Part shown: in pieces, positions 38,961-44,347 of the stretch
Position numbering within the stretch: position 1 is the first letter of the stretch
Layout of the letters: each line of letters starts with the position of its first letter
Assembly (NCBI GenBank): GCA_016873675.1
Contig: VGWG01000007.1
Location: 1 to 55,184, forward strand
From: Lentisphaerota bacterium
GTDB taxonomy: Bacteria > Verrucomicrobiota > Kiritimatiellia > RFP12 > JAAYNR01
Direction of reading: 5' to 3'
DNA: 55,184 nt
Position numbers and translations under genes: made by a program
The notes under the pieces: model-generated
Told to the model about the DNA's origin: nothing
Databases searched by the model: none
Seen by the model: only the letters and a program-made list of their open reading frames with translations

Positions 38961-39250
38961 TCACGCGAGGCCGCGGGCGTCGAGCGCGTCTTCATCGAGG
39001 CCCAGGAGATGCCCGAGTTCGTGCAGGTAGGTCACGCGGACCTCGTCGCAAAAGACGCCGGGATCGTCGTCGGACGCATCGCGGAGGTTGCGGATGAAGA
39101 GGCGGATGGCGGGTGGGCGCGGCTCGGTATCGGTCGATGCATCGGCATAGGCAGGCGCGTCAAAGAGACCCAGCAAACCAACGAACGACCAGTCACACCA
39201 CAATGGTTTGTTGAAGATCGATCCAAGTTCGCGATTGATTCCGATGATTA
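38961..39250 (-). pseudogene. Zincin-like metallopeptidase (PF06262-type), N-terminally truncated
   Basis: The C-terminal 80-95 codons match the small zincin-like metallopeptidase family: LLGLFDAP, then PAIRLFIRNL and the metal site TYLHELGHLLGLDEDAL (HExxH, with the family's downstream GLDED). Members are usually 110-130 residues with an N-terminal helical part before LLGL, which is not found. No ATG or GTG with a ribosome-binding site is present; the first plausible codon is TTG at 39203. It starts right after the UPF0371 stop, so it may be a truncated relic or a short gene read by coupling. Confidence 0.55.
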
Positions 39251-40765
39251 GTGCTCGCTGTAGAGATCGGCCGTCGCAAAGTGGGCGTCGCAGGTGTGCC
39301 GCAACCCGAGGCGCCGGAGGCCGACCTCGTCGCCTGCGCTGACAATGTGCGTCAGATGCACTTCGCAGTCCCGCAGTTCGGGCAGATGGTCGAGCGCAGC
39401 CTGGGCCGCCGGATTGGAGGCCGAGCTGATGGCCAGGGCAATCAGGGTCTCGTCCAGATTGAGGCTCGCGTGCTTTCCGATCAGCACGTCGCGCTTCATC
39501 CGCACGATCGCCTTGACGACGTCGGGCGACAGCAAATGAATCGCGTCGGGAATGCCGGCCATCAGCTTGACCGCATTCAGGACCATGGCGGATGCGGCAT
39601 GCATAAGCGTCGAGTTCTTCCCAACCACGATACGGCCATCGGCCAGCTCGAGCGCCGCGCCGCAGCAGATGCCATGATCCCCCTTGCCGCATCCCGCGCA
39701 TGCCTCCGCAGCAGTCCGCGAAGGCTTCACCACCAACCGGTCGGTCGGCGCGATCCTCAATTCCTGCATGAGCATTTCGATGCGCGAGACGGTCTCGCGC
39801 TCCGTCATGCCCAGGGCGTATTCACACGCATGGCGGAAGTACCGGCGGATGACCTCCTGAAGCGCCGCATCGCGCACCGTCAGGTCGTCGACGATGCCGA
39901 AGGCGACTCGGTTGACCCCCATGTCCGTAGGTGACTTATAGGGACACGGGGCCTGTGTGATCCGCTCCCAGATCGCACGCACAAGCGGAAACGCGGCGAT
40001 GTCACGATTGTAATTGACCGCCGTCTGGCCATGTGCTTCGAGATGAAAGGGATCGATCATGTTGACGTCCTGCAGGTCCGCCGTGGCCGCCTCATAGGCG
40101 ACGTTCGCCGGATGCTTGAGCGGCATGTTCCAGACCGGGAATGTCTCAAATTTGGCGTAGCCCGCGAGACGGCCGTTGTGGCGATCATGGTAGAGATTGG
40201 TCAGACAGGTTGCCAGTTTGCCGCTGCCCGGACCGGGACCGGTCACCACGACGATCGGCCGCTCGGTCGCGATGTAGGGATTGGCGCCGTACCCCTCTTC
40301 GCTGACAATCGTCTCCATGTCGGTCGGGTAACCTCGCGTCGCCCGGTGGCAGTAGACTTCGACGCCGCGCCGCTCCAGCTTGGTTTTGAACTGCTTGGCT
40401 GCCGGCTGGCCATCGTAACGGGTGATCACAACGGCTCGGATAAACAGGCCCGCGTCACGCAAGTCGTCAATCGTCTTCAGCGCATCGGCATCGTAGGAGA
40501 TTCCGAAATCAGCCCGAATTTTCTTGCGCTCGATGTCACCCGCAAAAATGCAGAGCACAATTTCGGCCTTGTCCCGAAGCTTCTGCAACAGGCGTATTTT
40601 GACATTCGGATCATAGCCCGGAAGGACCCGCGCCGCATGATAGTCGAACATCAGTTTGCCTCCAAACTCCAGATAGAGTTTGTTTCCGAACAGCTCGGTG
40701 CGGCGAAGGATTTCTTCCGATTGCTGTTGAAGGTATTTCTCGTTGTCAAATCCGGTTTTAATCAT
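39248..40765 (-). CDS. DUF1846 / UPF0371 family protein
   Basis: This is a 505-residue protein of the DUF1846 (UPF0371) family, found in many anaerobes and of unconfirmed function. Recognisable family segments are MIKTGFDNEKYLQQQ, KLYLEFGGKLMFDYHAARVLPG, TRYDGQPAAKQF, VVTGPGPGSGKLATCL (P-loop-like) and KFETFPVWNMPLKHPAN. The glycine-rich GPGPGSGK suggests nucleotide or phosphate binding, but no reaction is known. There are no membrane segments or signal. AGGA stands five bases upstream of the ATG. The upstream gap holds the palindromic element. Confidence 0.92.
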   Translation of the reverse strand: MIKTGFDNEKYLQQQSEEILRRTELFGNKLYLEFGGKLMFDYHAARVLPGYDPNVKIRLLQKLRDKAEIVLCIFAGDIERKKIRADFGISYDADALKTIDDLRDAGLFIRAVVITRYDGQPAAKQFKTKLERRGVEVYCHRATRGYPTDMETIVSEEGYGANPYIATERPIVVVTGPGPGSGKLATCLTNLYHDRHNGRLAGYAKFETFPVWNMPLKHPANVAYEAATADLQDVNMIDPFHLEAHGQTAVNYNRDIAAFPLVRAIWERITQAPCPYKSPTDMGVNRVAFGIVDDLTVRDAALQEVIRRYFRHACEYALGMTERETVSRIEMLMQELRIAPTDRLVVKPSRTAAEACAGCGKGDHGICCGAALELADGRIVVGKNSTLMHAASAMVLNAVKLMAGIPDAIHLLSPDVVKAIVRMKRDVLIGKHASLNLDETLIALAISSASNPAAQAALDHLPELRDCEVHLTHIVSAGDEVGLRRLGLRHTCDAHFATADLYSEH

Positions 40766-40859: not shown

Positions 40860-41014
40860 TTTGATCTTTTGACCTTTGAGGCTCTTGCAAAACCCTGAAC
40901 AGGCTGACAGTGGTGCAGGCGTCTCGCCTGCAATTCCAAGGCTTTTTCGTAATTCTGGCAGGCGAGACGCCTGCACCACAAGGGTTTTGCAAGAGCCTCC
41001 TTTTGATCTTTTGA
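40860..41014. mobile_element. MITE-like element with nested inverted repeats and flanking direct repeats
   Basis: Outer arms GAGGCTCTTGCAAAACCCT (40878-40896) and its exact complement (40981-40999) enclose inner arms of 22 bp (40910-40931 and 40958-40979), also exact complements. The 13-bp sequence TTTGATCTTTTGA occurs directly repeated at 40860-40872 and 41002-41014, just outside the palindrome, as a target duplication would. There is no transposase. It occupies most of the gene-free stretch 40766-41087; nothing else is seen there. Confidence 0.7.
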
Positions 41015-41087
41015 TTTGCCCTCAGCGCCTATCAGTGATAACCTTAGGACATTCGTATGAATGCCTTGCACCAGCGGTCAACCTGCC

Positions 41088-42251
41088 ATGCAACCGAACC
41101 CCACCATTCTCCATCTTGCCAACGTGCTGATGATCGCTGAAGCCGACGGTGTCTTGACAGAACCAGAGGCCTTCGCGTTGCGCGAAATCATGCACCGCAT
41201 CGGCGCAGACGCAGATGATTTGGCCAAAGCCCGCGACTGGATGGCGCACCATTCGCCTTATCACCTGCAGGAAGTCCAAAACTCGGCCGACGCGATGAAA
41301 ATGATCGAGGATATGGTTTTGATGTCGCTTGCTGATGGCCAGGTCTCGCGCGATGAATCGCAGCCGCTGGAGGCGTTTTTGTCCGGCCTGGGGTTCGTGC
41401 AGGCCGACATGGACATGATTGTGCAGCGGGTCCGCAGCCGCCTGCGCGCGATTCCAGCCACGCCTCATCCGTCCATGCCGATACGTCGTGATGCCGTGGC
41501 GGAAGTCCCTGCACAGGCTGCCCGCCACGTCACGCCCCCCCCTGTTTTCGCGCGTATTTCGCCTCCTGCGCTTCAATCACCCTCCACACACCAGCGACCG
41601 ATTGCGCATCCGACACCCGCGCACCGACATGCGACTCCGGCACCCGTTCTCGTCGCAGAACCCCCGCCACACACTGCACCGCCCGTGTCCGCAATCCCCC
41701 CACCCGTCGTGCCGAAAGAAACCCCGCTTGAGCGGTGCCAGCGGCACCGCGCGAGCGCTCCCCAGGGCGTCTGCTATTGTTTTGGCGCGCCCGAGGGGCC
41801 GCTCAATCCGTGGGGCTGCCGCCTCATGCGCATGGCCTGGACGTCAGACGCCGATTGGCTGCGCCTCGGCCGCTTTCGCGACAGCGACACGTTCGTTCTG
41901 GATCACGAGGCTATCTCCGCCCGGCTGAGCGAACGCCTCACGAGCGTTGCCGGCTGCCCCTTCCTTCTGACCGGCTTCGCCCAACAGGCCTTGAACGCGC
42001 TGCCATCGCAAGCCACAACGATGGGGCGCTGGCGTCATCATCTCGTCTCGCAGACGGCCCCTTCCGCCACGGCGGTCACCGTTCGCTCGTACAGCCATGG
42101 GTGCGCCCGGGAAGTCGCGGCGTGGGCAGACGGCCTGGCGCCGACGGATGATCGAGACGCGCGGCAAATGATCAGGCGCGCGGCGCGTCTGACCGGGGTG
42201 GCCGTCGATCTCACGCTGTTGAATCACACGAAGGAGGCAGACCATGCTTGA
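41088..42251 (+). CDS. TerB-like N-terminal domain protein
   Basis: This is a 387-residue protein. Residues 1-120 form a helical TerB/DjlA-N-like domain (LMIAEADGVLTEPEAFALREI and MVLMSLADGQVSRDESQPLEAFL, each with the acidic metal-binding-like pattern). Residues 130-225 are a long Pro/Ala/His-rich linker. The C-terminal 165 residues, with CQRHRA and GVCYCFGAP then RLMRMAWTSDADWLRLG, are not recognised. TerB domains occur in tellurite and stress-response proteins near membranes. It overlaps the NfeD-like gene by eight bases, so it probably works with the NfeD-flotillin pair. An alternative start at 41061 adds nine residues. Confidence 0.7.
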   Translation: MQPNPTILHLANVLMIAEADGVLTEPEAFALREIMHRIGADADDLAKARDWMAHHSPYHLQEVQNSADAMKMIEDMVLMSLADGQVSRDESQPLEAFLSGLGFVQADMDMIVQRVRSRLRAIPATPHPSMPIRRDAVAEVPAQAARHVTPPPVFARISPPALQSPSTHQRPIAHPTPAHRHATPAPVLVAEPPPHTAPPVSAIPPPVVPKETPLERCQRHRASAPQGVCYCFGAPEGPLNPWGCRLMRMAWTSDADWLRLGRFRDSDTFVLDHEAISARLSERLTSVAGCPFLLTGFAQQALNALPSQATTMGRWRHHLVSQTAPSATAVTVRSYSHGCAREVAAWADGLAPTDDRDARQMIRRAARLTGVAVDLTLLNHTKEADHA

Positions 42252-42825
42252 CTGGTGGAGCCAGCTCTCACAACTCAATCAGACCCTGTACGGCATCGCT
42301 GCGTGCATCAGCGTTCCGTTCATCTGGCAATTGATCGCCTCGGTGATCGGTCTGTCGGGTGATGTCGATTCGGATGGCATGGACACGGATGGCACCGATG
42401 CGGTGGAAACCGTGCTGGCCTTCAAGCTGCTCAGCATGCGCGCGTTGCTCACCTTCTTCACCCTCTTTTTCTGGGCGGCCGCGCTCTATGTCGAACGCGA
42501 TGGGACAACCTCGCGCGTCTTCGGCATCGCCGCGCTCTGGGGGCTGGCTGGCATGAGCGCGGTTGCCGGGCTGTTGCACGTCCTGCCCAGGCTGGCCCAT
42601 TCCGGCACGCGCGACCTCGAATCGGCCCTGAATGCCGAGGCATTGGTCTACCTGGACATCCCTGCAAACGGCATCGGCGAAATCCGCGTGGTCGTCAGCG
42701 GCAGCGTCTGCCACGTCAAAGCGCGTTCCATCGGTGGCGAACCCCTCCCGGCCGGCACGCCGGTCACAGTCTGCAGCCGATATGGCCAAACGATCCTCGT
42801 TGTCAAACCGATTTCCAAATCCTGA
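42244..42825 (+). CDS. NfeD-like (YqiJ-type) membrane protein, flotillin partner
   Basis: This is a 193-residue protein with three membrane segments (about 15-37, 63-83 and 91-113) and a C-terminal OB-fold-like beta domain (ALVYLDIPANGIGEIRVVVSG to GQTILVVKPI). This layout matches the YqiJ/NfeD1b type that is normally encoded beside a flotillin and organises membrane microdomains. An acidic loop DVDSDGMDTDGTD lies between helices 1 and 2. AAGGAGG precedes the ATG by six bases. The flotillin gene follows after 19 bases, which supports the assignment. Confidence 0.82.
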   Translation: MLDWWSQLSQLNQTLYGIAACISVPFIWQLIASVIGLSGDVDSDGMDTDGTDAVETVLAFKLLSMRALLTFFTLFFWAAALYVERDGTTSRVFGIAALWGLAGMSAVAGLLHVLPRLAHSGTRDLESALNAEALVYLDIPANGIGEIRVVVSGSVCHVKARSIGGEPLPAGTPVTVCSRYGQTILVVKPISKS

Positions 42826-42844
42826 AACACACGGAGAACCTCCC

Positions 42845-44329
42845 ATGAACACACTGATTCTGACGCTGGCTCAAGCCTCTACACGCCCGGACTCCTTCCC
42901 CCGAGAGCTCGGCCTCGGACTATTGCTCGGACTCGCGCTGCTGCTGACCACCATCACCTTTCTCTCGCGCTATCGCCGCTGCCCCTCGAACCGCATCCTG
43001 GTCATCTACGGTAAAACCAGCCACGGGGCGGCCAAGTGCATCCACGGCGGCGCAGCGTTCGTCTGGCCGCTTTTCCAAGCGTATGAGTACCTGGATCTTG
43101 AGCCTTTTGTTGTACCGAGTGATCTCAAGAGCGCGCTCTCCGCAGAGAATATCCGCGTCAGCGTGCCGACCACCGTCACGGCCGCAATCTCGATCGAGCC
43201 GGGCATCATGGAAAACGCCGCCGTGCGTCTGCTCGGCCAGAGCGCCCAGGACATCCAAAACCAGGCGCAGGACATCATCCTCGGCCAGATGCGCGCCGTC
43301 ATCGCCACGATGCGCATCGAGGAGATCAACCGCGACCGCCAGGCCTTCCTCGCAAAGGTCAATGAGGCCGTTTCCGGTGAACTCGAGAAAATCGGCCTGT
43401 CGCTGATCAACGTGAACATCCGTGACATTGAAGACGACTCGGGCTATATCGTCGCCCTCGGCCGCCGCGCCGCGGCCGAAGCGATCAACCAAGCCAACGT
43501 TGACGTTGCCGAACAGGAGCGGACAGGGCAGACGGGCGTCGCAGAGCGTCAGCGCGACACCCGCGTGGCCGTCGCCGCCGCAAACGCCACCGCCGAAATC
43601 GGCGAGGCGAAGGCCACCCGTGACCGGCGCATCCAGTCGGCCGGCCTGGACGCCGAGGCCGTGCATGCCGAGACCGATGCCGACGCCCGGAAGGCCAGTT
43701 CGCGCGCCAACCAGCACGTCGCCGAGCAGCAGGCGCGCAATCGGGCCGAGTCCGCATCCAAGGAGGCCGACGGCGCCATTCGCGTGGCGCAGGAATTGGC
43801 GCAAAAGAAGGCGGAGGAAGCCCGTGCCGAACGCGAGCGGGCGCGTCTCACGGCCGAAGTCATCGTTCCCGCCAACGCCGATCGGGAGCGTGTGCTGATC
43901 GCCGCCGATGCCGAAAAGCAGAAGGCGGTGCGCATCGCCGAGGGACAGGCCGAGGCGACGCTGGTGCAGATGAACGCCGAGGCGCGGGGCGTGCAGGCGA
44001 TTCTCGACGGCAAGGCTCAGGGCTACGCCAATCTGGTCAAGGCGTGCGCATCGGCGGAACAGGCCGCCTCGCTGCTGCTCGTGGAGAAGTTGATCGATGT
44101 GGCGCGCATTCAGGCTCAGGCCATTCAGGATCTGCCGATCGAGAAGATCATGATCTGGGACGGCGGTGGACAGCAGGGCGGCTTGGGCTCCCTCGGCCAG
44201 AAACTGATGGGCGCGCTGCCGCCCATGCACGAACTCGCCAAGCAGGTCGGCATCGATCTCCCCGCCTACCTCGGCAAGGCGGTCGGCCCGGCGCCCGCCG
44301 CGCCTGAATCCCCCGCAACAGGCGCGTAA
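42845..44329 (+). CDS. Flotillin family protein (YqiK/FloT-like)
   Basis: Flotillins are membrane-anchored scaffold proteins that form ordered lipid domains. The 494-residue protein has one N-terminal membrane segment (about 21-40), an SPFH domain (VIYGKTSHGAAKCIHGG to INVNIRDIEDD), then a long Ala/Glu-rich coiled coil (about 200-420, repeated AEA/ARK patterns) and a Gly/Pro-rich tail (GGGQQGGLGSLGQKLMGALPP). This order is typical for the family. It follows the NfeD-like gene and forms an operon of TerB-like, NfeD and flotillin. Confidence 0.94.
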   Translation: MNTLILTLAQASTRPDSFPRELGLGLLLGLALLLTTITFLSRYRRCPSNRILVIYGKTSHGAAKCIHGGAAFVWPLFQAYEYLDLEPFVVPSDLKSALSAENIRVSVPTTVTAAISIEPGIMENAAVRLLGQSAQDIQNQAQDIILGQMRAVIATMRIEEINRDRQAFLAKVNEAVSGELEKIGLSLINVNIRDIEDDSGYIVALGRRAAAEAINQANVDVAEQERTGQTGVAERQRDTRVAVAAANATAEIGEAKATRDRRIQSAGLDAEAVHAETDADARKASSRANQHVAEQQARNRAESASKEADGAIRVAQELAQKKAEEARAERERARLTAEVIVPANADRERVLIAADAEKQKAVRIAEGQAEATLVQMNAEARGVQAILDGKAQGYANLVKACASAEQAASLLLVEKLIDVARIQAQAIQDLPIEKIMIWDGGGQQGGLGSLGQKLMGALPPMHELAKQVGIDLPAYLGKAVGPAPAAPESPATGA

Positions 44330-44347
44330 ACAGGAGACGGGCACGCG

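Follow-up and report, generated by a model that had tools for sequence, protein, structure and literature searches.

A nested palindrome between divergent genes

What kind of element combines two perfect nested palindromes with a flanking 13-mer on either side, and how did it arrive at its present site? The locus in question lies in the window, i.e. the whole analysed stretch of 55,184 nucleotides, which is contig C7 of a 3.17-Mb draft genome in 218 contigs (the own genome, G000). Its outer inverted repeats, 19 nt long and 100% identical, are located at 40878-40896 (plus strand, GAGGCTCTTGCAAAACCCT) and 40981-40999 (minus strand). The inner ones, 22 nt long and equally 100% identical, occupy 40910-40931 (plus strand) and 40958-40979 (minus strand), with a linker of 13 nt (40897-40909) leading from the left end to the first inner arm and a spacer of 26 nt (40932-40957) between the two arms. 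The 13-mer TTTGATCTTTTGA is found at 40860-40872 and again at 41002-41014. The original prediction had listed both pairs of perfect repeats as well as the 13-mers on the two sides, and these observations were confirmed.

The 122-bp unit delimited by the outer repeats (40878-40999) forms a single long nested hairpin, with a folding energy z-score of -12.6 and none of 200 shuffled sequences folding as well. Within the window, the inner 22-mer occurred twice when up to 3 mismatches were allowed, as compared to 0.01 occurrences expected. The element is situated between divergent genes encoding a DUF1846 protein (39248-40765, minus strand) and a TerB-domain protein (41061-42251, plus strand), whose listed start codons are 112 bp and 61 bp away, respectively. 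A reading as an RNA gene was rejected, as the only matches were to microRNAs, covered the hairpin and scored far below their gathering scores. The nested structure, considered unusual in the original prediction, was borne out, and its best reading is that of a REP dimer enclosed by MITE ends.

Copies and family size in the genome

When the element region was compared with its own genome, 31 matches were obtained, a number which includes both strands of every palindrome plus matches to the ends only. The copy on contig C81 was 100% identical over all 122 bp, five further full-length copies (C182, C17, C48, C75 and C4) were 88-95% identical, and those on C64 and C186 were partial or diverged. 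Single-copy occurrence is therefore ruled out. Including the window element, there are seven full-length copies of this type (type A), contained within a larger set of 41 pairs with such ends. The end motif GAGGCTCTTGCAAAA (up to 1 mismatch) occurred 103 times in the genome, while its reversed control did not occur at all. In 190 kb of sequence fetched around end-motif places (among the matches listed, of the 103) and around hairpin matches, we detected 122 ends (17-mer, up to 3 mismatches), which formed 41 facing pairs up to 2.5 kb apart and left 42 ends unpaired. Two of the 41 pairs (C19 and C76) are alternative pairings, each sharing an end with another pair.

The pairs fell into several sizes, namely 121-122 bp (the window type, n = 7), 100-101 bp, 156-196 bp, bare hairpins of 42-43 bp, 350 bp (an internal deletion), 1621 bp (an insertion sequence) and a few others. 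The bare hairpins consist of two ends back to back (C4:7399-7441, C43:18943-18984, C24:12547-12588 and C158:1609-1651); a 4-bp duplication was present at two of these four.

The window element is thus 122 bp long, lacks a transposase gene, has perfect 19-bp terminal inverted repeats, occurs in multiple dispersed copies and is flanked by a target-site duplication (CTTT), and the genome contains an element with the same ends and an open transposase gene (C20:3695-5315). The MITE reading holds because the element is multi-copy. The idea of a non-autonomous mobile element, put forward in the original prediction, is accordingly supported by the multi-copy status, by an insertion sequence in the genome that shares its ends and by an empty site in a related genome (see below). 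No match to the element was found in a plasmid collection. Two viral contigs from IMG/VR (L272 and L273) each contained the exact 17-bp end motif once.

Target-site duplication and insertion site

The original prediction took the two 13-mers for a target duplication of 13 bp. The duplication that abuts the element is the 4-bp CTTT (40874-40877 and 41000-41003). The 13-mers are separated from the element by CCTTT (5 bp) on the left and by CT (2 bp) on the right; they abut neither end and therefore cannot be the target duplication. An exact duplication of 4 bp was the longest match in 20 of the 41 pairs and one of 5 bp in a single pair, as opposed to 0.68 exact 4-bp duplications on average, and 5 at most, when the flanks were re-paired at random in 2000 trials. 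Lengths up to 15 bp were examined, and exact duplications abutting the ends were not longer than 5 bp in any of the 41 pairs. In 15 pairs no duplication reached 2 bp, which counts against the explanation that we prefer.

The origin of the 13-mers can be seen when the element and one CTTT are removed. The joined flanks then form a tandem array with a period of 8 bp and 3.8 copies (TRF), whose left part (40860-40877, TTTGATCT-type units) contains the left 13-mer and whose right part (41000-41015) contains the right one. In the same-genus genome G001, the matching site (contig C18) is devoid of the element, and the left flank is 89% identical over 1.6 kb. This site carries a tandem array of period 9 with 3.0 copies (TRF), and the window flanks joined together align better to it than the filled site does. 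From the rejoined flanks and the array in G001, it follows that the 13-mers belong to an older array, which the insertion split.

Similarity of the right flank extends over some tens of bases only, and BLAST gave no match to the right of the element, which counts against our preferred explanation; this shortness is due to about 3.3 kb of the window being absent from G001. As judged by eye, the absent segment is window 41020-44347 (the TerB-domain gene and others), and the G001 sequence past the site reaches the orthologue of window 44348 within about 100 bases.

The short elements are situated in DNA that is poorer in G+C than the sequence farther away. The 20 bp on each side had a G+C content of 0.49 vs 0.61 at 51-250 bp away, and the value was lower in 33 of 38 cases (Wilcoxon p 1.4e-6; the full-length insertion sequence and the two alternative pairings were left out of the 41). 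The copy on C182 also adjoins a tandem array (by eye). More generally, a tandem array into which an element has inserted can be mistaken for a long target duplication.

The resident insertion sequence and its relatives

The outer ends of the element, GAGGCTCTTGCAAAACC, are also the ends of a 1621-bp insertion sequence at C20:3695-5315. A transposase with similar ends, which the original prediction proposed to look for, is hence present: its ORF of 396 amino acids matches DUF772 and DDE_Tnp_1 above the Pfam cut-offs. The best NCBIfam model was IS1182, with 96.2 bits vs a cut-off of 270, so that by this test the protein is a relative and not a member of IS1182. It is distantly IS1182/IS5-like. 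The presumed D, D and E residues, picked by eye, were invariant in all seven sequences compared, C20 included. Hairpins were noticed by eye beside the ends of the insertion sequence.

C20 was the sole protein match for the transposase in the genome. Contigs C106, C171 and C55 stop within further copies of the insertion-sequence termini (100, 86 and 92% identical, respectively), indicating that more copies of this insertion sequence probably exist in the genome. Contig C106 (L068, 1-2246) begins inside such a copy, the end of which is base 127. An internal deletion derivative of 350 bp, with ends 88 and 89% identical to those of the C20 insertion sequence, is located at C4:28345-28694 (L061). 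A 4-bp duplication was absent from all four full-length insertion sequences for which both flanks were read (C20, L043; G012:C420, L225; G012:C139, L244; G045:C33, L243), and this again counts against our preferred explanation.

Across the comparison set of 59 genomes (the own one and 58 relatives), ends and transposase change together. End motifs (17-mer, up to 1 mismatch) numbered 92 in G000, 53 in G001, 33 in G008, 123 in G012 and 16 in G029, with no more than 3 in any other genome. G001, G008 and G012 contained close matches to the transposase, either whole or fragmentary. G029 contained 16 end motifs, yet no transposase match, which is at odds with our preferred explanation. The 82% identical transposase of G012:C420 has the same ends as C20, while homologues with 43-48% identity have the ends GAGGTAATTGCAAAACC (G031:C51), GAGGTAATTTCAAAACC (G045:C33) and GAGGTTCTTGCGAAACC (G012:C139). 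Among the six homologues read, two do not fit, as G031:C34 had one clear end only and G045:C76 had none.

Eleven named transposase loci from a genome collection were checked for ends with up to 3 mismatches. An exact end was present on both sides of the gene in L262 and in L261 (apparently identical with G012:C420), and on one side in L264 and L267. A variant end was found beside the gene in L266 and L268, and only variant ends in L270 (CAMBQN010000042.1). No end within 3 mismatches was detected in L263, L265, L269 and L271, in the case of L263 despite 1.5 kb of sequence past the gene end. Variant ends, GAGGCTCTTGCAGAACC, were also found in G020 and G024.

A REP-like core

Each inner arm is composed of a GTGG tag, a 7-8-bp stem and a 3-nt loop (GCAGGCG-TCT-CGCCTGC in the left unit). 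The arms are inverted with their tags pointing outward, making up a head-to-head dimer. The core thereby shows the make-up described for REP dimers and REPINs, in which a GTRG-type tag is combined with a short hairpin and two such units are inverted relative to each other, tags outward. When 3 mismatches were allowed (loose pattern), 68 GTGG-type hairpins were found in the own genome and 11 in the reversed control. Of these 68, 33 lay inside paired ends, and 49 had an end-like motif (up to 4 mismatches of 15) within 75 bp. Such a motif was absent for the other 19, 8 of which belong to a second set of ends described below; single GTGG-type hairpins without ends were present, for example, on C54 and C136. 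Among the 40 short pairs, GTGG-type hairpins (up to 3 mismatches) occurred in 19, with two or more hairpins in 14, while the strict count of dimers with perfect stems was 10.

The strict REP-A pattern (1 mismatch) was found 19 times in G000 and 10 times in G003 (control 0 in both), and was absent from the other 57 genomes, including the end-rich G001 (53 end motifs) and G012. G003 contained neither end motifs nor transposase matches, so that these ends are not needed for the core to spread; the 10 REP-A copies of this genome represent dispersal independent of the other elements. They are mostly single units and not dimers (by eye). One of them (L185, G003 C3:12026) sits within the spacer of a different REP dimer, again as judged by eye. 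A REP-less version of the type-A linker was not encountered among the loci examined, and beyond the type-A copies the linker matched once in a transposase locus and once elsewhere in the window.

We also asked which RAYTs are present. The NCBIfam model of REP-associated transposases (NF047646, cut-off 80) recognized two proteins in the own genome, on C106 (score 84.5) and C27 (91.7), and two others scored below the cut-off. The C106 RAYT has GTAG-tagged hairpins on both sides, with the core GGCG-TCY-CGCC as in the element; in these units, the tag is found four bases ahead of the perfect stem. No RAYT flanked by GTGG units was found, which counts against our preferred explanation. PF01797 had no match in G003 or G012. 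Since the C106 RAYT also fails to reach the cut-off of this model, RAYTs can be overlooked by it. The missing match in G003 speaks against a resident RAYT there.

Modular combinations of ends and cores

REP-like dimers of other types were also met within such ends in other genomes. In G012, 11 stretches were fetched (several of them chosen because they matched the window element) and read by eye: 9 had pairs and 2 had none. All nine pairs contained two inverted GTGGCACGGGC-type hairpins, some of them degenerate, and 4-bp duplications were present in six. One G008 element encloses a dimer of GTAGCGGCGGTC with tags outward, and the three other pairs read in this genome had non-REP cores. A G020 element with variant ends carries two GGAG-tagged hairpins whose tags point inward (by eye).

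The own genome also harbours a second family of 142 bp, with unrelated ends, GGGCGCATCCCCGTTTCG, around GGAG-type dimers with tags outward. Its members are located at C58:2256-2397 (L169), C64:16081-16222 (L055) and C162:212-353 (L178). An exact 9-bp duplication was present at C58 and imperfect ones at C64 and C162.

These combinations raise the possibility that ends of DDE transposons and REP dimers of the RAYT type repeatedly form two-tier elements, with different REP dimers (GTGG, GTAG, GGAG) in different genomes and with unrelated ends as well. Two unrelated kinds of transposase would then take part in spreading REPs, and the arrival of REP dimers within palindromic MITEs would be a general route to new MITE families. 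We regard this generalization as evenly balanced between being right and being wrong.

Origin of the element

We consider it likely that the element is a 122-bp MITE which captured a REPIN-like core. Its 19-bp ends would be recognized in trans by the DDE transposase of the resident insertion sequence at C20:3695-5315, and insertion would have proceeded via a 4-bp staggered cut (CTTT) into the older AT-rich 8-bp tandem array. The core would be a REPIN-like head-to-head dimer of GTGG-tagged REP hairpins, a type of unit that RAYT tyrosine transposases mobilise. Most probably, the ends captured this core a single time, and both were subsequently amplified together. We infer that the C20 transposase moves the element in trans and that the core was put in place by a RAYT; the sequence of events proposed here is likewise inferred.

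Other explanations deserve consideration. A mobile element making a 13-bp target duplication might be assumed from the two exact 13-mers, of which there is no other copy in the genome (two more places match with 1 mismatch, and the reversed control gave 1). This is barely credible, since the 13-mers abut neither end, exact duplications next to the ends measure 4 bp in 20 of the 41 pairs but 6 to 15 bp in none, and the rejoined flanks form an 8-bp array of 3.8 copies with a comparable 9-bp array at the G001 site; the abutting 4-bp duplication and the tandem array together refute it. Very improbable, too, is that the entire unit is a REP-type palindrome moved by a RAYT alone, the outer repeat being its target palindrome, as has been reported for REP dimers of A. 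variabilis and H. neapolitanus. Although REP dimers inside longer palindromes have been described (PMC3733652), the outer repeat here is found around a DDE transposase gene and around many elements lacking REP cores. The 4-bp duplications are located outside of this repeat, an observation that refutes such a reading.

A further alternative is that the inner repeat is no REP but a working part of the transposon, i.e. hairpins serving transposition or blocking read-through. The frequency of GTGG-type hairpins inside paired ends (33 of 68) or within 75 bp of an end-like motif (49 of 68) would agree with this, as would the hairpins adjoining the ends of the insertion sequence itself (by eye) and the fact that no Y1 transposase was detected in G003. 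On the other hand, G003 has REP-A 10 times without any end motif. The core also varies within the ends, being GTGG in G000 and G012, GTAG in one G008 element, GGAG in the G020 element with variant ends and non-REP in others, and GGAG-type dimers occur inside the unrelated ends GGGCGCATCCCCGTTTCG. Furthermore, 20 of the 40 short pairs contain no such hairpins, and a 4-5-bp duplication was present in 12 of these vs 9 of the 20 with hairpins (the alternative C76 pairing being included in the 20). We regard a working part of the transposon as unlikely, and a captured REP dimer between MITE ends as the preferred reading.

Comparison with known systems

Like MITEs of insertion sequences, the element is short, gene-less and present in many copies, shares its ends with a resident insertion sequence and has a short duplication. 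It differs from them in that its core is a REP dimer and not a deletion remnant; the 350-bp element at C4:28345-28694 represents the ordinary deletion type. With REPINs and GTAG-type dimers, as they are described in PMC3116915 and PMC3733652, it shares the tetranucleotide tag, the short stem and loop, and the inverted arrangement of two units whose tags face outward. Most GTAG-20 elements of Opitutus terrae are reported there to have a GTGG tag. Unlike REPINs, about half of the hairpins here (33 of 68) are inside DDE transposon ends, and no RAYT with adjoining GTGG units was found.

A relative of the C20 transposase is known from IS1182/IS1272. IS1272 (IS1182 family) is reported to replace palindromes without duplication (PMC5678879), which likewise counts against our preferred explanation; a related DDE transposase and full-length copies without target duplication are common to both systems. 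In contrast, the short elements here have 4-bp duplications, and the NCBIfam score falls well short of the IS1182 cut-off. In P. gingivalis, too, a MITE is reported to contain a repeat of a different class (PMC4596501), which in that case is a minisatellite and not a REP dimer.

In our literature search, which was judged mostly by title and the start of the abstract and covered subscription journals little, no description of REP dimers within the ends of DDE insertion sequences was met. Close parallels are the REP dimers inside longer palindromes in PMC3733652, whose passage on them lists GTAG-15 of A. variabilis, CGTC-1 of H. neapolitanus and GTAG-23 of T. roseum. According to this passage, the outer palindrome without REPs was not found for A. 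variabilis and H. neapolitanus, and the small target palindrome of T. roseum was found in such a REP-less form. Nested palindromes with the REPs in the centre are shared with our element. In our case, however, an insertion sequence that could be identified has the outer repeat as its end, and this repeat is widespread without REPs, while that passage names no transposase. If this arrangement is general, REP repeats gain a second way to spread and MITEs gain a source of core sequence. Beyond what was reported earlier for REPs in palindromes, the present case offers a transposase family to which the outer repeat can be assigned, copies that lack REPs, a duplication that was measured and a related genome in which the insertion is missing.
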